Below, piece after piece: positions 21,912 through 40,856 of a stretch of DNA of 64,000 bases (within the stretch, counting starts at the first letter, position 1; each line of letters begins with the position of its first letter). The stretch is from Aureibaculum flavum. Lineage in GTDB: Bacteria; Bacteroidota; Bacteroidia; Flavobacteriales; Flavobacteriaceae. The stretch lies in the NCBI RefSeq assembly GCF_016406085.1, contig NZ_JAEHFJ010000003.1, forward strand, positions 374,288-438,287. Direction: 5' to 3'. Made by a program: the position numbers and the translations under genes. Below the pieces are notes generated by a model. It was not told the origin of the DNA, ran no database searches, and saw only the letters and a list, made by a program, of their open reading frames with translations.

Positions 21912-22343
21912 TTATGAACAAGCTATTTTATCAACTCTAGTCTGATGACGCCCACCTTCAAAATCCATATTTAAAAAAATATCAACAAAATTAATTGCTT
22001 GATGTACTGAAACAAATCGTGCAGGAATACTTAATATATTTGCATCATTATGTTGTCTTGCTAACGCAACCAATTCATTATTCCAACATAGAGCTGCTCT
22101 AATTCCTTGATGTTTATTGGCCGCAATTTGTGCACCATTGCCACTTCCACAAATGGTTATACCAAAATCAACCTCTTTATTTTCTACAGCATTAGCTACT
22201 GGATGAACAAAATCTGGATAATCAACACTATCATCGGTATCAGTTCCAAAATTTATAACGGTATGTCCGTTTTCCTCTAAATGCTTTACTATAGCTTTCT
22301 TGTAATCGGTACCTGCGTGGTCATTACCTATTGCAATCTTCAT
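21912..22343 (-). CDS. rpiB: Ribose-5-phosphate isomerase B
   Basis: This 143-residue protein matches the LacAB/RpiB family: GNDHAGTDYKK at the N-terminus, the phosphate-binding and catalytic CGSGNGAQIAANK (Cys about residue 65), ALCWNNELVALARQHNDANI, and a C-terminal GGRHQTRVDKI. It interconverts ribose-5-phosphate and ribulose-5-phosphate in the pentose phosphate pathway. It is first in the rpiB-GNAT-nudK operon and is preceded by a long AT-rich gap. Confidence 0.96.
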   Translation of the reverse strand: MKIAIGNDHAGTDYKKAIVKHLEENGHTVINFGTDTDDSVDYPDFVHPVANAVENKEVDFGITICGSGNGAQIAANKHQGIRAALCWNNELVALARQHNDANILSIPARFVSVHQAINFVDIFLNMDFEGGRHQTRVDKIACS

Positions 22344-23028
22344 TTTTTATATATTTTAATTTAAAATTCAAATTTACCACTATTTAACTTTATGAACATT
22401 AAAATTTTAAATTGTTAATAGCTTTTGGCAATAATTTAAGAATTAGACCTTTAAACAATCCTACAATTGTTAATCAAATATCAATTAAATTTTATAATAA
22501 TAATTTGTATTCTTAATTAAAAGGTTAAGAGAAATATTACTAATACAAACCTAATTTAGTTATCATAATTTGAGATGAATTTATTAACATATAAAAACAA
22601 GGTTTTCAACTAAAATTTTAATTATTCTTTACAATAAACTAGTTAATAACAGTTGTTAACAACCTGTGTTTAGAATTGATTATTTATTTGATTTATAGTT
22701 GGTTTAACTAATAAATAATAGCTCATAAAATGTTAAACAAAATTTAACAACTTAATATCAAAATAAATATTGCATTATTTATTGTAACTATTAACAACAT
22801 ATAATAACAATCATTTCTTTTCTAAAATTTTAAAATAAAAAAAATATTATATTATATATGTTGATAAGTAAAAATTAAGCAAACACAAGTAGGTAAATTT
22901 ATGTTGTGAGTGAATACCTTATTATTAATACTAATAAGTAGTTTTTTTACTTTTTTTCACTTTTTATCTAAAATATTGTAAATTAGCGACCTTAACTATG
23001 AACTAAGAAAACTTAAACCCCCTATGTT
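22344..23028. other. Long AT-rich intergenic region (685 bp)
   Basis: This stretch is far more AT-rich than its surroundings and contains no credible open frame or RNA gene. It has repeated TTAACAAC motifs (22656-22663, 22744-22751, 22791-22798). There is an imperfect palindrome GTTAATAACAGTTGTTAAC (from about 22642), together with several TGTTAA variants. Near the right end, poly-T tracts and TTGTAAATTAG precede the NHL protein gene. It holds the promoters of the divergent rpiB operon and the NHL gene; most of its length is unexplained. I see no DnaA box cluster. Confidence 0.6.
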
Positions 23029-24330
23029 ATGAAAAAAAATTACATTATTTTATTATTTTTATGCCTTGTGTATACTGCACAAAGTCAAACAATTACTACG
23101 GTAGCAGGTACTGGATCTTCGGGATTTTCTGGAGATGGTGGTTTAGCTACTACAGCAAAGTTAAATTTACCATTTAATTTAACTTTTGACAAGTCTGATA
23201 ATATTTATATTGCAGATACTTATAATAATAGTATTAGAAGAATTGATAAGGAATCAGGTATCATTACAACAGTAGTTGGTACAGCTGATAAAAAACAAGT
23301 TAGCGAATTAAAAACCCCAACGGGATTAACATTTGATAATTACAATAACCTATATGTTGCTGATTTAGCTAATTTACGTATTAGAAAGATAAATTTAGAT
23401 ACAGGTAGTTCTATTACGTTAGTTGGAAAAAAATCAGAAACAGAATTTCCTAATATTAATGAATATTTAGGAGGTCCTTTTAATGTTGTTTTTGACAAGC
23501 ATGGAAATCTTTTTGTTTCTGTAAACGGTGATAGTAATGTTAAAAAAGTTGATTTTACAACGGGTAAGGTAACTATTATTGCAGGTACTGGTGAAGTAGG
23601 TTTTTCTGGAGATGGAGGACAAGCTTCTGCTGCTAAATTAGCCAACCCAACAGGTTTAGCTTTAGACGGTAAAGGAAATCTTTTTGTTTCTGATAGTGGT
23701 AACGAACGTATTAGAAAAATAAATTTATCAACGGGTGTTATTACAACTGTAGCCGGAACCGGAGAAACAGGATTTGTAGGAGAAAATATTGATGCAACTA
23801 AAGCTCAATTAGCAAATCCATTAGGTTTAGCTATTAATAATAATGGTGATTTATTTGTTGTGGATAGAGGTAATAATATGGTAAGAAAAATTGCACTTTC
23901 TACAGGTAAAATTACAACGGTAGCTGGTAATGGTGAGTCTGGATTTTCAGGAGATGGTGAATTAGCAAAAGATGCAAAATTATCTAATCCTACCGGTTTA
24001 GCTTTTAATAAAACTGGTGAATTATTTGTTGTAGATAGAGGTAATAATAGAATTAGAAAAATATCAGGTTTAGCCTCTGCAGATACTGATGAAGTTTCAT
24101 TAGAAGCAAGTATAAAAGTATATCCTAATCCAAGTACAGATAAAATAACTATCGATATAAAAGATAACGTTGAATTGAAATATGTTTTAATGTTTGATTC
24201 TAATGGTAGTCAGGTAAAAGTGCAATTAAAAGACAAGTCTTTAAATGTAGCTAAATTACCAAGAGGTATTTATGTACTTAGAATTGCAACATCTGAAGGT
24301 TCAACAGAACAAAAGGTTGTATTAGAATAA
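23029..24330 (+). CDS. NHL-repeat protein exported by T9SS (C-terminal sorting domain)
   Basis: This 433-residue protein has a signal peptide (about 1-19, ending in AQSQ). Six or so NHL repeats follow, with the recurring pattern GxSGFSGDGG...A.LxxPxGLxFDxxGNLFVxDxGNxRIRKI, forming a beta-propeller from about residue 22 to 345. The last 72 residues (from about 362, VYPNPSTDKITI to VLE) are a type A T9SS sorting domain, ending with the usual LPRGIYVLRI strand. It should be secreted through the outer membrane by T9SS and anchored or released at the surface. NHL propellers bind proteins or glycans; the ligand is unknown. A terminator follows at 24351-24380. Confidence 0.92.
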   Translation: MKKNYIILLFLCLVYTAQSQTITTVAGTGSSGFSGDGGLATTAKLNLPFNLTFDKSDNIYIADTYNNSIRRIDKESGIITTVVGTADKKQVSELKTPTGLTFDNYNNLYVADLANLRIRKINLDTGSSITLVGKKSETEFPNINEYLGGPFNVVFDKHGNLFVSVNGDSNVKKVDFTTGKVTIIAGTGEVGFSGDGGQASAAKLANPTGLALDGKGNLFVSDSGNERIRKINLSTGVITTVAGTGETGFVGENIDATKAQLANPLGLAINNNGDLFVVDRGNNMVRKIALSTGKITTVAGNGESGFSGDGELAKDAKLSNPTGLAFNKTGELFVVDRGNNRIRKISGLASADTDEVSLEASIKVYPNPSTDKITIDIKDNVELKYVLMFDSNGSQVKVQLKDKSLNVAKLPRGIYVLRIATSEGSTEQKVVLE

Positions 24331-24408: not shown

Positions 24409-26616
24409 ATGTCAAAAAAGAGATTTCAATATAAAAAGAAAGGTAATGTAGTTAAAGATTTATCTACAAAAATTTTAAAAACATTAAATCAAAATTCAAA
24501 ACAGTCGTTTAATTATAAACAAATAGCCGCGAGTTTAGATATTACAGATGCTAATGGTAGACAACAAATTATACAAAATTTGGAAGCCTTAAAGCTAAAG
24601 GAACGAATCGAAGAAACTGAAAAGGGTAAGTATAAAATTATACAAAACGAACATTATCATGTTGGTATTTTAGATGTTACATCTAATAAAAATGCCTATT
24701 TTATTTCGGATACTTTAGAGCACGATGCCTTTATACCAACGATAAATTTAAATCGTGGACTAGATGGTGATACGGTAAAAGTTTATGTGTATAGAAGGCG
24801 AAATAATGATAAGTACGAAGGTGAAGTAACTGAAATTATAGAACGTGCTAAAACCGAATTTGTTGGTGTTTTACAAATGAGTAAAAATTTCGGATTTGTA
24901 ATACCAGACAATAATAAGATGTATGCAGATATTTTTATATCTAAAAATAATATAGACGGAGCAGAACATGGAGATAAAGTATTGGCTGAATTAACAGATT
25001 GGCCAAATAATTCTAAGAATCCTTTTGGTAAAATTATTACGGTTTTAGGTAAACCTGGAGAACACGATACTGAAATTCACTCTATTTTATTAGAATATGG
25101 TCTTCCGTATCAGTTTCCTGAAAAAGTTGAAGATGATGCCACCAAATTAGTAACAGAAGTGAGTGCAAAAGATATTTCGGAACGGAGGGATATGCGTAAA
25201 ACGTTAACTTTTACAATAGATCCTAAAGATGCCAAAGATTTTGATGATGCTTTATCTTTTAAAGAACTAGAAAATGGAAATTTTGAAATAGGAATTCATA
25301 TTGCAGATGTATCGCATTATGTGCAACCAGATACAATTTTAGATCAAGAAGCTTATGAAAGGGCAACTTCAGTATATTTAGTAGATAGAGTTGTACCTAT
25401 GTTGCCAGAAGTATTGTCTAATGGAGTATGTTCTTTAAGACCTAATGAAGAAAAATTAACTTTTTCAGCGGTTTTTGAAATGGATCAGAAAGGACATGTT
25501 ATAAACGAATGGTTTGGTAGAACGGTTACATATTCAGACCAACGTTTTGCATATGAAGAAGCTCAGCATATAATAGAAACTTTTGAAAATACAATTCCTG
25601 AGGATATATCGATAACGGGAAAAAGTTATAAAGTAACTGATGATATTGTAAAAGCAACTTTAAAGTTAGACGAACTGGCAAAAAAACTTAGAAAAAGACG
25701 CTTACAACAAGGAGCAATTACTTTTGATAGGGTAGAAGTGAAGTTTAATTTAAATGAAGATGCTGAACCAACTGGGGTTTATTTTAAAGAATCTAAAGAT
25801 GCGAATAAGCTAATTGAAGAATTTATGCTTTTAGCTAATAAAAAAGTAGCTGAATTTGTAGGAAAAAAGAAAAATGGTACACCTACAAAAAATACGTTTA
25901 TTTATAGAATACATGATGAACCTAATTCTGATAAACTAGCTGGTTTACAAGAAATTATAAGTAAGTTCGGATACAAAATTAATACCCAAACAAAAGAAAC
26001 AACTTCTAATTCATTAAACAAGTTGTTAAGTGATGTAAATGGCAAGCCGGAAGAGAATATGATAGAAACTTTAACTATCCGTTCAATGAGCAAAGCAATT
26101 TATACTACGGATAATATTGGACATTACGGATTAGCATTTGACTATTACAGTCATTTTACGTCACCTATTAGACGTTATCCTGATGTGATGACACATAGAT
26201 TACTTCAACATTATTTGGATGGAGGAAAATCGCCCGATGCAGCACCTTACGAGAAAAGATGTGAACACTCTTCAGAAAGAGAAATGTTAGCATCTAAAGC
26301 AGAACGTGATTCTATTAAATACATGCAGGTTAAATACATGCAAAATCATCAAGATGAAGAATTTGTAGGTGTGATATCAGGAGTTACGGAATGGGGTATT
26401 TATATAGAAATTATAGAAAATAAGTGTGAAGGAATGGTACGTACTCGAGATATTAAGGACGATTATTATATCTATGATGAAAAGCAATACGCTTTGGTTG
26501 GACAGTCTACAAATAATCTATATCAGTTGGGAGATGAAGTTACTGTAAAAGTGAAAAAGACAGATTTAGAACGTAAACACTTAGATTTTTACTTAATAAA
26601 TGGAAATGGTGATTAA
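24409..26616 (+). CDS. rnr: Ribonuclease R
   Basis: This 735-residue RNase II/RNB family exoribonuclease degrades structured RNA 3' to 5'. The order is a basic N-terminal helix-turn-helix (about 10-85), two cold-shock-like domains (about 85-240) and the RNB domain with catalytic DPKDAKDFDD at residues 271-280. The RNB domain also has FTSPIRRYPDVMTHR near 585. The C-terminal S1 domain runs from about 640 to 728 (FVGVISGVTEWGIYIEI). The length is slightly below that of E. coli RNase R, as usual in Bacteroidota. It is monocistronic and followed by a long palindrome. Confidence 0.97.
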   Translation: MSKKRFQYKKKGNVVKDLSTKILKTLNQNSKQSFNYKQIAASLDITDANGRQQIIQNLEALKLKERIEETEKGKYKIIQNEHYHVGILDVTSNKNAYFISDTLEHDAFIPTINLNRGLDGDTVKVYVYRRRNNDKYEGEVTEIIERAKTEFVGVLQMSKNFGFVIPDNNKMYADIFISKNNIDGAEHGDKVLAELTDWPNNSKNPFGKIITVLGKPGEHDTEIHSILLEYGLPYQFPEKVEDDATKLVTEVSAKDISERRDMRKTLTFTIDPKDAKDFDDALSFKELENGNFEIGIHIADVSHYVQPDTILDQEAYERATSVYLVDRVVPMLPEVLSNGVCSLRPNEEKLTFSAVFEMDQKGHVINEWFGRTVTYSDQRFAYEEAQHIIETFENTIPEDISITGKSYKVTDDIVKATLKLDELAKKLRKRRLQQGAITFDRVEVKFNLNEDAEPTGVYFKESKDANKLIEEFMLLANKKVAEFVGKKKNGTPTKNTFIYRIHDEPNSDKLAGLQEIISKFGYKINTQTKETTSNSLNKLLSDVNGKPEENMIETLTIRSMSKAIYTTDNIGHYGLAFDYYSHFTSPIRRYPDVMTHRLLQHYLDGGKSPDAAPYEKRCEHSSEREMLASKAERDSIKYMQVKYMQNHQDEEFVGVISGVTEWGIYIEIIENKCEGMVRTRDIKDDYYIYDEKQYALVGQSTNNLYQLGDEVTVKVKKTDLERKHLDFYLINGNGD

Positions 26617-36400: not shown

Positions 36401-36747
36401 GTAAAGATGGAAAAAACGGGGTAAACGGACAGAAGGCAATAAAACAAATGGAACAATTGGAAAAACAATTATTAGACAAAGGGTTTAGTAATGATGTTTT
36501 AGAACAGATGCAGCAGTTAGAACACGAACTTCTTAAGTTGGAGGATGCTCAGTTAGAGCAAGGAAAGGATACGAAAAGAAAGTCGGAAATTAATACAAAA
36601 AACTTTGAACAAAGAACAATTCCTGAAATAAAAGGTGATAAACTCTTTTTTAGTAAGGATGAAATTTTAAATAGAGAACCGTTGCCTTTACGTAATAATT
36701 ATAAAAAGAAAGTGCAACAGTATTTTAAAGAAACAGTAAAAGAATGA
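33403..36747 (+). CDS. DUF4175 family large membrane-anchored coiled-coil protein
   Basis: This 1114-residue protein has three N-terminal membrane helices (about 24-46, 50-72, 149-168) and an extracytoplasmic beta-rich part (about 170-485). A long Lys/Glu/Gln-rich coiled coil runs from about 489 to 780, followed by helical C-terminal parts and a Gly/Lys/Glu low-complexity linker near 910-975. It fits DUF4175, a Bacteroidota family of unknown role encoded next to ybeY and mnmG. The only in-frame start is a TTG at 33403 (a stop codon lies 30 bases upstream and no ATG or GTG intervenes), preceded by a purine-rich AAGAAAGAA. Its stop overlaps the ybeY start by 4 bases (ATGA), indicating coupled translation. 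Confidence 0.9.
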   Translation: MNNFNNIQQKLQQFIKKYYTNELIKGLILFVSFGLLYFLITVFIEYFLWLPPLARSVLFFVFIAVELALFIKFIAIPLARLFGLQKGITLSEASFIIGKHFSEVDDKLLNVLQLNKDKNQSELLLASIEQKSKSLEPIPFINAISFKGNIKYLKYLFIPILIWVFMLLTGNNSIFNESFDRVVHYKTAYEPPALFTFVVLNDKLQDVEGQPFDLIVATEGSVVPENITIHFNNESYMLKDLNGNFTHQFNNLKEPIEFYLEANDVRSRPYQLDVLRTPNVTGFEMYMNYPAYTGKKDELIKNTGNAVIPEGSTVTWNITTKATDSMNFVSDKRKAFTLKSDNNFSISKRVRNTLNYQITTSNRGLKDYEKLEYTLQVIGDEHPKIEVKSDIDSISRGPVQFVGQLSDDYGLKKLQLVYYDVKNKKALQIAPISVNKSTFEEFYYIFSPEILKIDLGKAYEMYFEVYDNDGTNGSKVTISQTFTYYNKTQQEITDDLLKEQKQNLEELNKINNNSEKLNKELDAFSKKLRKKSDLNWNDKKEFDQFLKRQEQYKQMQEKHTENLKENLDEQERNDENTEIKDKKEELKKRIEEAQELQEKNNLLDQLKKMSEKLEKEEMLNKLDKLTEQNKQEKKTLERLLELSKRFFVEKKAAQITQKLDSLSSKQEEESKKEESKIQDQEKLNKDFESIKKDFDEMRKQNQNLAQPMKFPDTKQEEKTIEELMERAKENLDEKNAEENNNNNKPEQKDQNKKDAKTNQKAAAKKQKELSKKMGGAMMEMQGEMLQENIDDLKAILENLLTFSFDQEKLLDAFDGIDASHAEFPKLLRKQQIIKENFEHIDDSLYTLSLRVPQLTTKIQEDLADAHYNLNKSLDNIAENFIVPGRSNQQYTMTAANNLADMLSDMLNSLQNPSMGQGKGKGGKPEFSLPDIIKKQGELQKKMKEGMKKGEGEKKKGKDGEKGKEGEPKGGEGGSEQMSGEQYQIYQEQNALKEALKEMMGKDGKNGVNGQKAIKQMEQLEKQLLDKGFSNDVLEQMQQLEHELLKLEDAQLEQGKDTKRKSEINTKNFEQRTIPEIKGDKLFFSKDEILNREPLPLRNNYKKKVQQYFKETVKE

Positions 36748-37160
36748 TTGAATTTAATTATCAAAAGGAGTTTGAATTTAACAATTCAAATGATATAAGT
36801 GGTTGGTTATCAGGGGCTATTAAAGATGAAAATTATAAGGAAGATGCTATTAATTATATCTTTTGCGATGATATATATTTATTAGAATTGAATGTTAAAC
36901 ATTTAGAACACAACACGTTAACGGATATTATAACCTTTGATTATAACCTCGGGAAATTGATAAGTTCAGATATTTTTATAAGTGTTGATCGAGTGTTAGA
37001 AAACTCGGTTAAGTATGCTGTTAATTTTGATGATGAATTAAATCGTGTTATGATTCATGGTATACTTCATTTATGTGGTTATAAAGACAAGACAAAAGAG
37101 GAGAAACTACTAATGCGAGAGAAAGAGGATTATTACTTATCTTTGCGGACTTTTAAATAA
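36744..37160 (+). CDS. ybeY: Endoribonuclease YbeY (16S rRNA maturation)
   Basis: This 138-residue protein has the YbeY fold with the zinc-binding segment HGILHLCGYKD (His105, His109). The third position, His in E. coli, is Asp115 here, which I recall as common in Bacteroidota. Other family segments are NTLTDIITFDY and SSDIFISVDRV. YbeY acts in 16S rRNA 3'-end processing and ribosome quality control. It overlaps the DUF4175 gene by 4 bases and is followed by a 212-bp gap that holds the first parS site. Confidence 0.93.
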   Translation: MIEFNYQKEFEFNNSNDISGWLSGAIKDENYKEDAINYIFCDDIYLLELNVKHLEHNTLTDIITFDYNLGKLISSDIFISVDRVLENSVKYAVNFDDELNRVMIHGILHLCGYKDKTKEEKLLMREKEDYYLSLRTFK

Positions 37161-37273
37161 TATAACTCGGAATGTATAAAATAAAATGAACACTATTCTA
37201 TTCATGAATTTTAAGCATATTAGAGAATATATAAGTAATATTAATTAACCCATGTGGAAATATAGGAACAGAT

Positions 37274-37289
37274 TGTTCCACGTGAAACA
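37274..37289. promoter_or_regulatory. parS site 1 (perfect consensus)
   Basis: TGTTCCACGTGAAACA is identical to the classical ParB-binding parS sequence of Bacillus subtilis. It lies between ybeY and mnmG. Its left half also belongs to a second dyad, GGAACA-GAT-TGTTCC (37265-37279). ParB dimers bind parS and spread to organise the origin region for segregation by ParA. Confidence 0.95.
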
Positions 37290-37372
37290 TCCATCATCTG
37301 CTTTGTTTATAGTTATGATTGATTTAGGGATGATCTGGACATTAAAAATAATAACTAGTATCACATAAAACA

Positions 37373-39250
37373 ATGAGTATTTTTCAAGACATATATGATG
37401 TAATTGTAGTTGGTGGTGGTCATGCAGGTAGTGAAGCTGCAGCAGCTAGTGCTAATATGGGCTCTAAGACGTTGTTGATTACCATGAGTTTACAAAACAT
37501 CGCTCAAATGAGTTGTAACCCTGCTATGGGTGGTATTGCAAAAGGACAAATTGTTAGAGAGATTGATGCCTTGGGTGGTTATAGTGGAATTGTTTCTGAC
37601 AAATCGGCTATTCAATTTAAAATGCTGAATAAATCAAAAGGACCAGCAATGTGGAGCCCAAGGGTTCAGAGTGATAGAATGCGATTTGCTGAAGAGTGGA
37701 GAAAAATGTTGGAGCAAACTGAGAATTTAGATTTCTTCCAAGATATGGTCAATGGTTTGATTGTTGAAAACGGAAAAATTACTGGTGTAAAAACAGGTTT
37801 GGGATTAACGATAAAGTGCAAGTCAGTTATCTTAACAGCTGGTACTTTTTTAAATGGATTAATACATATTGGTGAAAAAAACTTTGGTGGAGGTAGAGCA
37901 GGTGAAAAAGCTTCAACAGGTATAACTGAAGACTTAGTTAAGTTGGGCTTCGAATCTGGTAGAATGAAAACTGGAACACCACCTAGAGTGGATGGTAGGT
38001 CTTTAGATTATTCTAAAATGACTGAGCAGCCTGGAGATATTAAACCAGAAAAATTCTCTTATACAAATTTAACAAAACCATTGGTACACCAAAAGTCTTG
38101 TCATATGACGTATACGAGTCTCGAAGTGCATGACTTGTTACGAACTGGTTTTGATAGGTCTCCAATGTTTAATGGTAGAATACAAAGTATTGGTCCAAGA
38201 TATTGTCCTTCTATAGAGGATAAAATAGATAGGTTTGCTACCAAAGATAGGCATCAAATGTTTATTGAACCAGAAGGATGGAATACAGTTGAGGTCTATG
38301 TAAATGGTTTTTCAACTTCTTTACCTGAAGATGTTCAAGCTAAAGCATTACGTAAAGTTGCAGGATTCGAACATGTAAAATTTTTTAGATTTGGTTATGC
38401 AATTGAGTATGATTATTTTCCTCCAACACAATTAAAACATACACTTGAAACTAAGCTGGTGGAGAATTTATATTTTGCTGGTCAGATTAATGGAACCACG
38501 GGTTATGAAGAAGCAGGTTCGCAAGGATTAATGGCAGGTATAAATGCGGCTTTAAAAATACAGGAGCGTGAGCCATTTATTTTAAAACGTAGTGAAGCGT
38601 ATATAGGCGTTTTAATAGATGATTTAATCACAAAAGGCACAGAAGAACCTTATAGAATGTTTACCTCAAGGGCAGAGTATAGAACTTTGTTAAGACAAGA
38701 TAATGCTGATTTACGATTAACGCCAATGTCTTATGAAATAGGATTAGCGTCTAAAGAACAATTAGATCGTGTTCATGAAAAGCAAGTAAAAACAGATTTG
38801 TTTGTTGCTTTTCTTAAAGATACAAGTATTAAACCTAAAGATGTAAATCCGATATTGATAAACAAAAAAACGGCTGAGGTTGATCAATCTATGAAGATGA
38901 TTAAATTAGCTTCTAGACCGCAATTAGATTTTGATGATGTGAGACAGTTTCCTGGTGTTAATGATTTTATTATTGATAATATTATTGACGATGAAATTGT
39001 TGAGCAAACAGAAATTCATGTAAAATATGCTGGTTATATAGAAAAGGAAAAGAACAATGCTGATAAACTTAATAGACTAGAAAACATTTCTATTCCTTCT
39101 GATTTTGATTATCATAAATTGAAATCATTGTCTTTTGAGGCTCGCGAAAAATTAACAAAAATTCAACCAACGAGTATCTCTCAGGCAAGTAGAATTTCTG
39201 GTGTTAAACCAAGTGATGTTTCTGTATTGTTGGTTTATATGGGTAGATAG
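37373..39250 (+). CDS. mnmG: tRNA uridine-5-carboxymethylaminomethyl modification enzyme MnmG
   Basis: This 625-residue FAD-dependent protein works with MnmE to modify the wobble uridine of certain tRNAs. The FAD motif VVGGGHAGSEAA is near residue 13. Family signatures are QMSCNPAMGGIAKG, KMLNKSKGPAMWSPR, RAGEKASTGITEDL, GTPPRVDGRSLDY, the second catalytic Cys region RIQSIGPRYCPSIEDKI, and GQINGTTGYEEAGSQGL. The length matches the family. parS sites lie on both sides of it. mnmG next to chromosome-partition elements is also seen in B. subtilis, near its origin. Confidence 0.98.
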   Translation: MSIFQDIYDVIVVGGGHAGSEAAAASANMGSKTLLITMSLQNIAQMSCNPAMGGIAKGQIVREIDALGGYSGIVSDKSAIQFKMLNKSKGPAMWSPRVQSDRMRFAEEWRKMLEQTENLDFFQDMVNGLIVENGKITGVKTGLGLTIKCKSVILTAGTFLNGLIHIGEKNFGGGRAGEKASTGITEDLVKLGFESGRMKTGTPPRVDGRSLDYSKMTEQPGDIKPEKFSYTNLTKPLVHQKSCHMTYTSLEVHDLLRTGFDRSPMFNGRIQSIGPRYCPSIEDKIDRFATKDRHQMFIEPEGWNTVEVYVNGFSTSLPEDVQAKALRKVAGFEHVKFFRFGYAIEYDYFPPTQLKHTLETKLVENLYFAGQINGTTGYEEAGSQGLMAGINAALKIQEREPFILKRSEAYIGVLIDDLITKGTEEPYRMFTSRAEYRTLLRQDNADLRLTPMSYEIGLASKEQLDRVHEKQVKTDLFVAFLKDTSIKPKDVNPILINKKTAEVDQSMKMIKLASRPQLDFDDVRQFPGVNDFIIDNIIDDEIVEQTEIHVKYAGYIEKEKNNADKLNRLENISIPSDFDYHKLKSLSFEAREKLTKIQPTSISQASRISGVKPSDVSVLLVYMGR

Positions 39251-39331
39251 TTAAATGGACATGCTTGTTTGTTCTTATTCATTTAAAATTAAGGATTAGA
39301 TGTATCATTTTTAATCCATATAATTATAAAG

Positions 39332-39347
39332 GGTTCCACGTGAAACA
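39332..39347. promoter_or_regulatory. parS site 2 (one mismatch), contains a start codon
   Basis: GGTTCCACGTGAAACA differs from consensus TGTTNCACGTGAAACA only at the first base. The GTG at 39340-39342, within the central CACGTG, is the probable start codon of the following membrane protein gene, with AAAGGG just upstream as ribosome binding site. Confidence 0.9.
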
Positions 39348-39852
39348 AAATACTAAAACAAATTCAAACTCTAAGATTTTAAAAAATGAAGTTTTTTTAA
39401 AACAGCACTTATCTAAGTTAAGTTTGGTTTTTATTCTCTTACCATTTCTGTTTTTTGTTATGACGTTGAGTGTTTTCAATAGTTATTTTTTATTGTTTAG
39501 TTTACTATCCATTCCAGTTTTAAGTTTAAACTACAAGTACGTAATTAAAAATAATTTTGAAAATAAATTAGTAATTAGAATGTTTAGTTTTTCTTTTTTT
39601 TCTCAAAAGAAAACGTTGTTGTATCCAATTTATATTTCTATAGTTCATCAGGGTTATAAGGAAGCTGGAGGTATGATGTGGTATCCTACAGTTTTGGGTG
39701 AAGTACGCTACAAATTATATGTTATAAAGTTTTTTCATGGTAAAAAACAAGATACAGTCTTTAAAACTTCTAACAAGGAAAAAGCTATTTATAAGGCGAA
39801 CGAGCTTTCAAAATTATTAAATGTTAGAATATATAATACTTTAAAATCATAG
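39340..39852 (+). CDS. Membrane protein of unknown function starting inside parS
   Basis: With the GTG at 39340 this is 170 residues. A longer frame would need a TTG at 39265 with no ribosome binding site, whereas AAAGGG lies seven bases before the GTG. After a polar N-terminus there are two membrane helices (about 29-48 and 51-66). A cytoplasmic beta-rich domain follows, with RMFSFSFFSQKKTLLYP and VLGEVRYKLYVIKFFHG, resembling bacterial PH-like membrane proteins. No family is recognised. It sits between mnmG and the methyltransferase. Its stop codon overlaps parS site 3, so its start and stop both lie in parS sites. Confidence 0.7.
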   Translation: MKQNTKTNSNSKILKNEVFLKQHLSKLSLVFILLPFLFFVMTLSVFNSYFLLFSLLSIPVLSLNYKYVIKNNFENKLVIRMFSFSFFSQKKTLLYPIYISIVHQGYKEAGGMMWYPTVLGEVRYKLYVIKFFHGKKQDTVFKTSNKEKAIYKANELSKLLNVRIYNTLKS

Positions 39853-39866
39853 TTCCACGTGAAACA
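39851..39866. promoter_or_regulatory. parS site 3 (one mismatch), contains a start codon
   Basis: AGTTCCACGTGAAACA differs from consensus only at the first base. Its first two bases are the end of the TAG stop of the preceding gene, and its GTG (39859-39861) is the start of the methyltransferase gene. Confidence 0.9.
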
Positions 39867-40743
39867 AATATTAAAATCCCCAATAAAAAATAACAATTTA
39901 GAACCTTATATTTCGTGTGAAGACTATACAGTTTCACGTGAAACGTTTTCAATTTTTATTGATAAAGAGTCTGAATTATTAGTTACAACGCCACAACCCA
40001 AAGAAGAAGAATTGGGTAAATATTACGAAAGTGAATCCTACATTTCGCATTCAGATACAAAAAAATCTGTTGTAGATAAATTATATCATTCAGTTAGAAA
40101 TTATACCATAAAGAAAAAAGTAAAACTGATTAACGCTTTCAATGCTGACGAAAAAACTATTTTAGATATTGGTGCTGGAACGGGTGATTTTTTGGCTGCT
40201 TGTCAAATTGACGGATGGAAAGTTACGGGAGTGGAACCAAACGAAAAAGCGGTAGAAATATTGAATTCCAAATTAGGAAGTTTTAAAGTTCAAATTTTTT
40301 CTGATATCTATGAATTAAATTCGGAATCTTATGATGTCATAACCATGTGGCATGTGTTAGAACATGTTCCAAATCTTAGAGAATATATTGCCAAATTAAA
40401 ATTGCTTTTAAAACCAAATGGAACCCTAATTGTAGCAGTTCCAAATTTTAAAAGTTTTGATGCAAATCATTATAAAGAATTTTGGGCGGCTTATGATGTG
40501 CCAAGACATCTTTGGCATTTTTCTAGAAAATCAATTTCAGATTTATTTGGACAAGAAAACATGAAAGTAGAAAAAGTACTACCAATGAAGTTTGACTCCT
40601 TTTATGTTAGTTTACTTTCAGAAAAATACAAAACAGGTAAGTCTAACTTATTAAAGGCATTCTGGGTAGGATTAAAGTCAAATAGAAAAGCAAGATCCTC
40701 TAAAGAGTATTCATCGCTAATTTATATTATTAAAAACGCTTAA
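39859..40743 (+). CDS. Class I SAM-dependent methyltransferase
   Basis: This 294-residue protein has an N-terminal 90-residue extension (CEDYTVSRETFSIFI, VTTPQPKEEELGKYYESESY) typical of the flavobacterial family encoded next to mnmG. The methyltransferase core follows, with DIGAGTGDFL (Asp103 on), GVEPNEKA, MWHVLEHVPNLREYI and LKPNGTLIVAVPN. The substrate is unknown. Translation starts at a GTG that is part of parS site 3 and lies 6 bases after the preceding stop codon, so it is probably translationally coupled. parS site 4 is within the codons for VSRET. Confidence 0.88.
   Translation: MKQILKSPIKNNNLEPYISCEDYTVSRETFSIFIDKESELLVTTPQPKEEELGKYYESESYISHSDTKKSVVDKLYHSVRNYTIKKKVKLINAFNADEKTILDIGAGTGDFLAACQIDGWKVTGVEPNEKAVEILNSKLGSFKVQIFSDIYELNSESYDVITMWHVLEHVPNLREYIAKLKLLLKPNGTLIVAVPNFKSFDANHYKEFWAAYDVPRHLWHFSRKSISDLFGQENMKVEKVLPMKFDSFYVSLLSEKYKTGKSNLLKAFWVGLKSNRKARSSKEYSSLIYIIKNA
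39930..39945. promoter_or_regulatory. parS site 4 (inside the methyltransferase coding region)
   Basis: AGTTTCACGTGAAACG keeps the 14-bp palindromic core GTTTCACGTGAAAC and differs from consensus only at the outermost base on each side. It encodes Val-Ser-Arg-Glu-Thr of the methyltransferase. Confidence 0.85.
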
Positions 40744-40856
40744 TATTAAATTTAAGGGGTTTTAAGCTATTTTGTAGCTAGTGTTGGTGTTACACTATAA
40801 ACTTCCATAGAAACTCTTTAAAATGACAGTGTTTTAAGGTCACTTTCTATAAATAG

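Follow-up and report, generated by a model that had tools for sequence, protein, structure and literature searches.

The ParABS systems of Bacillus, Caulobacter and Pseudomonas combine a few copies of the same parS palindrome near the replication origin (oriC) with one chromosomal ParB and a ParA-like partner. An origin neighbourhood of the order mnmE-mnmG-rsmG-parA-parB is common in bacteria. In the available text of a Hi-C study of 12 gut strains, two of which are Bacteroidetes, most detected parS sites cluster at the origin, which does not always match dnaA; the origin was itself placed using parS and skew, backed by read coverage (PMC10197239). Here, we describe four parS palindromes around mnmG in a 64,000-nucleotide stretch (hereafter the window) of the genome of Aureibaculum flavum. 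They share with the Bacillus, Caulobacter and Pseudomonas systems the palindrome, the small number of origin-near sites and the single ParB with a putative, ParA-like partner, but parAB lies here on a separate contig and the sites are attached to mnmG. The clustering of parS at the origin also resembles that in the gut Bacteroidetes strains, whose origin is not systematically at dnaA; the available text of that report (PMC10197239) does not mention mnmG, and the window is flavobacterial, its best named relatives being Flavobacteriaceae. We regard it as very probable, from sequence comparisons, that the four palindromes form the chromosomal ParABS centromere near oriC, in a cluster that is anchored to mnmG in the phylum.

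By scanning the window with the 16-base parS palindrome TGTTNCACGTGNAACA, we found four matches with at most two mismatches, versus 0.12 expected from 100 dinucleotide shuffles, the largest count in any shuffle being 1. A previous examination of the letters alone (the sequence-only reading) had proposed these sites, between 37274 and 39945, as a chromosomal centromere, and our rescan with TGTTNCACGTGNAACA reproduced their positions and mismatches to the base. Its statement that no other match in the window has fewer than three mismatches also holds: the six additional matches all have exactly three (10 in total vs. 2.75 expected). The genome scan with two mismatches that it proposed gave a divided answer. 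In the whole assembly (4,754,601 bases in 40 contigs, the window being on contig C20), the 16-base query at this threshold is too loose, because the reversed pattern gives 12 matches versus 19 for the palindrome itself. The narrower 14-base core GTTNCACGTGNAAC, on the other hand, has exactly four matches, all in the mnmG cluster, whereas its reversed pattern has none. A multicopy 16-base palindrome is thus concentrated at one place in the genome, with all four core sites within a span of 2.7 kb across the 40 assembled contigs, and no even spread of sites is seen. It is scarcely credible that these are chance matches or a coding artefact, given the four sites found against 0.12 expected. The argument for a mere conserved protein motif would apply at least to parS4, which falls in a conserved V-S-x-E stretch of a methyltransferase; however, the exact core occurs at this position in just 1 of 75 readable relatives, Lutimonas halocynthiae (L087). 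A plasmid origin was also considered and rejected: a megablast search of positions 37200-40750 against 72,556 plasmid records gave no match.

The genome contains a single match to the HTH_ParB domain (PF17762; E-value 9.4e-38), on contig C1. The surrounding 3.3 kb encode a ParB of 299 residues directly adjoining a ParA-like ATPase of 256 residues, so that a chromosomal ParB is present and, as the sequence-only reading had it, parA and parB lie away from the cluster (C1 vs. C20). Proximity of parAB to the sites, a common but not required feature of such systems, is therefore not found here. The ParB sequence exceeds the TIGR00180 cut-off and resembles solved ParB, Spo0J and Noc chains. In addition to its helix-turn-helix domain, it contains the sequence GERR, which we take to be the motif for hydrolysis of cytidine triphosphate (CTP).

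The parS cluster lies close to the probable origin. Cumulative GC skew, scanned over 400 kb of contig C20, reaches its minimum at window position 23,099, 14.2-16.8 kb from the parS sites, and a sign switch of the skew falls at about window positions 22.5-23.2 kb, in agreement with the prediction of a dense cluster near a skew switch. On the basis of skew, gene context and base composition, the gap between the divergent rpiB and NHL-repeat genes, beyond which lies rnr, is probably the replication origin (table 1). Skew scans in five relatives covered 120 kb around mnmG (200 kb in G056), and the distance from the sites to the minimum was about 16-21 kb in four of them (G003, G010, G012 and G037). 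The minimum lies between rpiB and rnr in G037 and adjoins rpiB in G003, 19-21 kb from the sites in both; in G010 it is about 16 kb away, and no rpiB was found in the scanned stretch. Taken together, the unspread core sites, the presence of ParB and the skew minimum 14.2 kb off support the centromere reading, and a ParABS centromere near oriC whose ParB would act in trans appears well supported.

To place this locus in a wider context, we surveyed 165 genomes of Bacteroidota, a phylum assigned from the named relatives of the window mnmG, in three overlapping samples drawn from the order (59), the class (60) and the phylum (61). The core GTTNCACGTGNAAC was present in 41/59, 56/60 and 58/61 of these, respectively. 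For 154 genomes, we identified mnmG by its TIGR00136 match and examined up to 1.5 kb or 8 kb of flanking sequence per side, a contig end shortening one or both flanks in 12 of them; left out were eight genomes of family f14, which have neither ParB nor core, and G034, G070 and G109, which have no mnmG above the cut-off. Loci were oriented by mnmG, and distances are counted from where the TIGR00136 match begins, a point within the gene (105 bases for parS1 of the window, 83 from the ATG). A core site was found in 139 of the 154 genomes; in 131 of these 139, at least one is in mnmG itself or no more than 1.5 kb away. Among the 139, the site is at most 150 bases from mnmG in 126 and found on both sides in 59, and every core site is at mnmG in 110. 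In terms of sites, 266 of 326 lie within 1.5 kb of mnmG or within the gene (6 of them inside it), and the median distance between the profile match and the nearest one is 12 bases. A separate set of 80 named mnmG loci, mostly from flavobacteria judging by their titles, gave a core site within 1.5 kb in 79 cases, the exception being a Capnocytophaga metagenome contig (L141). Sites were on both sides in 64 of these loci, or 66 when two that touch the stop codon are counted as downstream, and no core site was found beyond 1.5 kb in flanks of up to 10 kb per side, contig permitting. Three control patterns had 0, 0 and 1 matches in the 1.59 Mb of named loci.

A search for ParB in the samples of the order and the phylum found it in 51/59 and 61/61 genomes, respectively. 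In the 22 genomes of these samples that have parB and mnmG on one contig, the two are separated by 169 kb to 2.2 Mb and never by less; the median distance is 0.27 of the genome, about the random expectation (11 of the genome lengths being rounded). Thus, in most sampled Bacteroidota genomes, parS adjoins mnmG while parB lies elsewhere. This phylum-wide attachment was not part of the sequence-only reading, nor were the presence of the probable origin in the window and the location of parS4 within the methyltransferase frame.

Differences between families provide natural controls. All eight genomes of the order that have no ParB match, which belong to family f14 and measure 0.3-0.6 Mb, have mnmG and lack the core site. 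Conversely, all eight genomes of family f9 (G009, G021, G029, G035, G040, G045, G050 and G054) have ParB and no core; each carries instead one variant site differing by one base (CACATG/CATGTG) at 21-108 bases from mnmG, and G045 has one additional core variant away from mnmG. This shift from CACGTG may reflect a changed ParB specificity. Variants differing by one base also occur within 25 bases of mnmG in G095, G103 and G154, G103 having them on either side of the gene plus another about 40 kb off. In G005, mnmG runs off the contig end and the sole variant site is elsewhere; the sole variant site of G034 is likewise not at mnmG. G109, an assembly without mnmG, has neither core nor variant.

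These data bear on a possible regulatory function of the palindromes, in which mnmG or its neighbours would be controlled by ParB or another CACGTG-binding factor and any centromere role would be secondary or absent. The short distance between the nearest site and the end of mnmG would suit such a function, as would the two window sites that hold possible GTG start codons. However, the presence of sites tracks that of ParB, mnmG being kept and the core missing in all eight ParB-less genomes of the order; site number and exact distance to mnmG vary widely among genomes; sites persist when the recognised neighbours change; and at least six genomes have sites away from mnmG. A primarily regulatory role is therefore highly improbable.

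The gene neighbourhood of mnmG was compared in 148 loci, 6 of the 154 having failed the orientation check. Queries were two MnmE and three RsmG sequences, one of each confirmed by NCBIfam; as many loci consist of 1.5-kb flanks, adjacent copies of mnmE or rsmG can be missed. Outside the class, one or both of these genes could be identified next to mnmG in 27 of 45 loci. Inside it, neither was recognised in any of the 103 loci, 84 of which have ybeY and/or the methyltransferase gene adjoining mnmG. The common bacterial arrangement is thus partly retained outside the class, with ybeY and the methyltransferase in its place inside. Of the 45 loci from beyond the class, 42 have sites close to mnmG, as do 14 of the 19 order and class loci without a recognised ybeY or methyltransferase. 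Because neighbours have changed and parB is distant while sites are still at mnmG, the simplest account would be that an ancestral mnmE-mnmG-rsmG-parAB origin locus was dispersed, parS remaining with mnmG. The order of events would then be a departure of parAB first, with mnmE and rsmG leaving later, in the class.

Why parS remained is a distinct question, to which two answers may be given. The first is pure hitchhiking: the sites would be true parS, and their link to mnmG would be the functionally meaningless inertia of two short intergenic spacers. This is a form of the centromere explanation, with which its probability overlaps, and we give it about even chances. It agrees with the old-looking arrangement in the 27 loci outside the class, with the location of sites away from mnmG in certain genomes and with the retention of mnmG without parS where ParB is absent. 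On the other hand, the genes recognised on either side of mnmG are not the same inside the class as in the remainder of the phylum, and the sites are kept; likewise, parB is far away in the 22 genomes where the distance could be taken, yet 131 of 139 genomes retain a site at mnmG. The second answer is that mnmG is itself part of the centromere: ParB clamps loaded at its ends would be held over the transcribed body, and transcription and assembly would influence each other. If true, this would tie a transfer RNA-modification enzyme to origin segregation across the whole phylum. We consider this coupling unlikely, because six broken links and the ParB-less genomes that keep mnmG oppose a strict need.

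In the ParABS centromere explanation, ParB from the distant parAB pair would load at the four parS sites as a CTP-dependent clamp and slide across mnmG and its neighbours, and ParA would pull the origin-proximal region toward the daughter cell halves. What the sequences show directly are the sites and their uniqueness, the skew switch close by, the remote ParB gene and the attachment to mnmG in the genomes surveyed; binding of ParB, clamp loading and segregation at the mnmG sites, as well as the sequence of evolutionary events, are what we infer from them. The available text of a study in Caulobacter indicates that extra parS sites are tolerated mainly near the existing cluster (PMC5815017). 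The sites at the ends of mnmG would probably have been retained since new parS is tolerated only in the vicinity of an existing cluster; if the Caulobacter rule holds here, the centromere could only grow or creep from its present place.

Several observations weigh against a centromere that is near oriC and tied to mnmG. The skew minima are local, because scans covered 400 kb here and 120-200 kb in the five relatives. The minimum of G012, although 18-20 kb from the sites, is not at rpiB, and G056 has two shallow minima, one at the rpiB-rnr gap about 51 kb off and a second, slightly lower one about 89 kb off. The ParA-like protein matches ParA-type NCBIfam families, all under their cut-offs, and the top-scoring NCBIfam model for ParB is that of Noc (TIGR04285), at 233 bits, under its cut-off of 315. 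No site was found in the readable part of the 1.5 kb next to mnmG in eight of the 139 site-bearing genomes (G063, G072, G082, G091, G111, G125, G143 and G146). Of these, G072 and G111 are uncertain, their contigs ending 128 and 985 bases from mnmG, respectively. The other six are genuine as far as seen, indicating that the link to mnmG can be broken: G082 has its sites on the mnmG contig, at about 43 kb from the gene, and those of G143 share a contig with parB, at a distance of about 72 kb. Finally, both the core site and its one-base variant are missing from G067, G142 and G160, and ParB was found in G142 and G160. The palindrome bound by Noc has a CCCGGG-type core; we rejected Noc-binding sites as a candidate because the window sites have a CACGTG core and the ParB scores under the Noc cut-off.

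The position of parS at mnmG suggests a route, from sequence alone, to the centromere of most Bacteroidota chromosomes and perhaps to their origin region, which would be useful where dnaA is an unsafe marker, as the available text of the gut strain study indicates (PMC10197239). The centromere appears to have remained next to a single gene as parAB and the recognised neighbours moved, so that the cause of such positional stability in a bacterial centromere could be tested directly in tractable flavobacteria and Bacteroides. Among the literature matches listed, none describes parS at mnmG in Bacteroidota. Such sites may reportedly already be listed in the parS survey of Livny and others (2007).

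Table 1. Features of the window around the parS cluster and the probable origin
Feature	Position	Strand	Remarks
Probable oriC	22344..23028	.	685-base gap, 18% G+C; GC skew switches sign
rpiB	21912..22343	-	TIGR01120; also beside skew minimum in G037, G056 (one of two shallow minima) and G003
rnr (RNase R)	24409..26616	+	TIGR02063; right of probable origin
ybeY	36744..37160	+	TIGR00043; typical upstream neighbour of mnmG in the order
parS1	37274..37289	.	Palindrome TGTTCCACGTGAAACA, 0 mismatches; between ybeY and mnmG
mnmG (gidA)	37373..39250	+	TIGR00136, 841 bits; bracketed by parS1 and parS2
parS2	39332..39347	.	1 mismatch; about 80 bases 3' of mnmG stop; holds GTG, possible start of small open reading frame
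Small open reading frame	39340..39852	+	Extra gene between mnmG and methyltransferase; 170 codons from GTG inside parS2
parS3	39851..39866	.	1 mismatch; holds GTG, possible methyltransferase start; downstream bases similar to those of parS2
S-adenosylmethionine-dependent methyltransferase	39859..40743	+	PF13489; typical downstream neighbour of mnmG in the order
parS4	39930..39945	.	2 mismatches, core intact; within methyltransferase frame, encodes V-S-R-E-T

The small open reading frame, whose start is placed at a TTG (39265) in the mechanical list of frames, has no NCBIfam or Pfam match at an E-value of 0.001 and a relative in just 1 of the 80 named loci (L124, Kordia). Hydrophobic stretches are visible by eye in its translation. 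It is flanked by parS2 and parS3, which have in common a longer context, GTTCCACGTGAAACAAA, plus similar bases 3' of it. The parS site may have been duplicated upon arrival of the small frame between mnmG and the methyltransferase gene. We also considered whether the GTG of the downstream parS serves generally as a start codon: of the 67 named loci that possess both a downstream parS and the methyltransferase, 8 show it in open frame with the latter. The rule was dropped because this count is unremarkable given one frame in three, as judged informally.

Multiplied sites were seen at several loci. Four to seven parS sites lie upstream of mnmG in four loci titled Flavobacterium (L096, L098, L104 and L105), in one titled Limnohabitans (L110) and in G002, and among site-to-site spacings below 130 bases in the 80 named loci, 32 of 38 are 34-71 bases. 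In G087, a tandem array of 99-base units, each with one parS, starts directly after a ybeY gene (tblastn, 40% identity over 133 residues) and reappears at a contig end upstream of mnmG, with 12 core sites on four contigs (L313, at the end of contig C24; L314; L315; and L247, at the end of contig C40). If these contig pieces are joined, the arrangement resembles a satellite-type centromere array that lies between ybeY and mnmG.

With regard to the probable origin, the classical DnaA box TTATNCACA is not enriched in the window (3 vs. 4.85 expected), none of the three copies being inside the gap, and the looser box with one mismatch is at background in the window (240 vs. 268). Four origin-gap stretches were compared, namely 22344-23028 of the window, the rpiB-rnr gaps of G037 and G056 and 804 bases beside rpiB in G003. 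Common to them, in place of TTATNCACA, are TTATTAACA and GTTATTAAC, with 7 and 5 occurrences versus 0.4 and 0.1, respectively, expected from base composition; these may possibly represent a DnaA-box variant of flavobacteria. The G056 stretch additionally holds one TTATCCACA.

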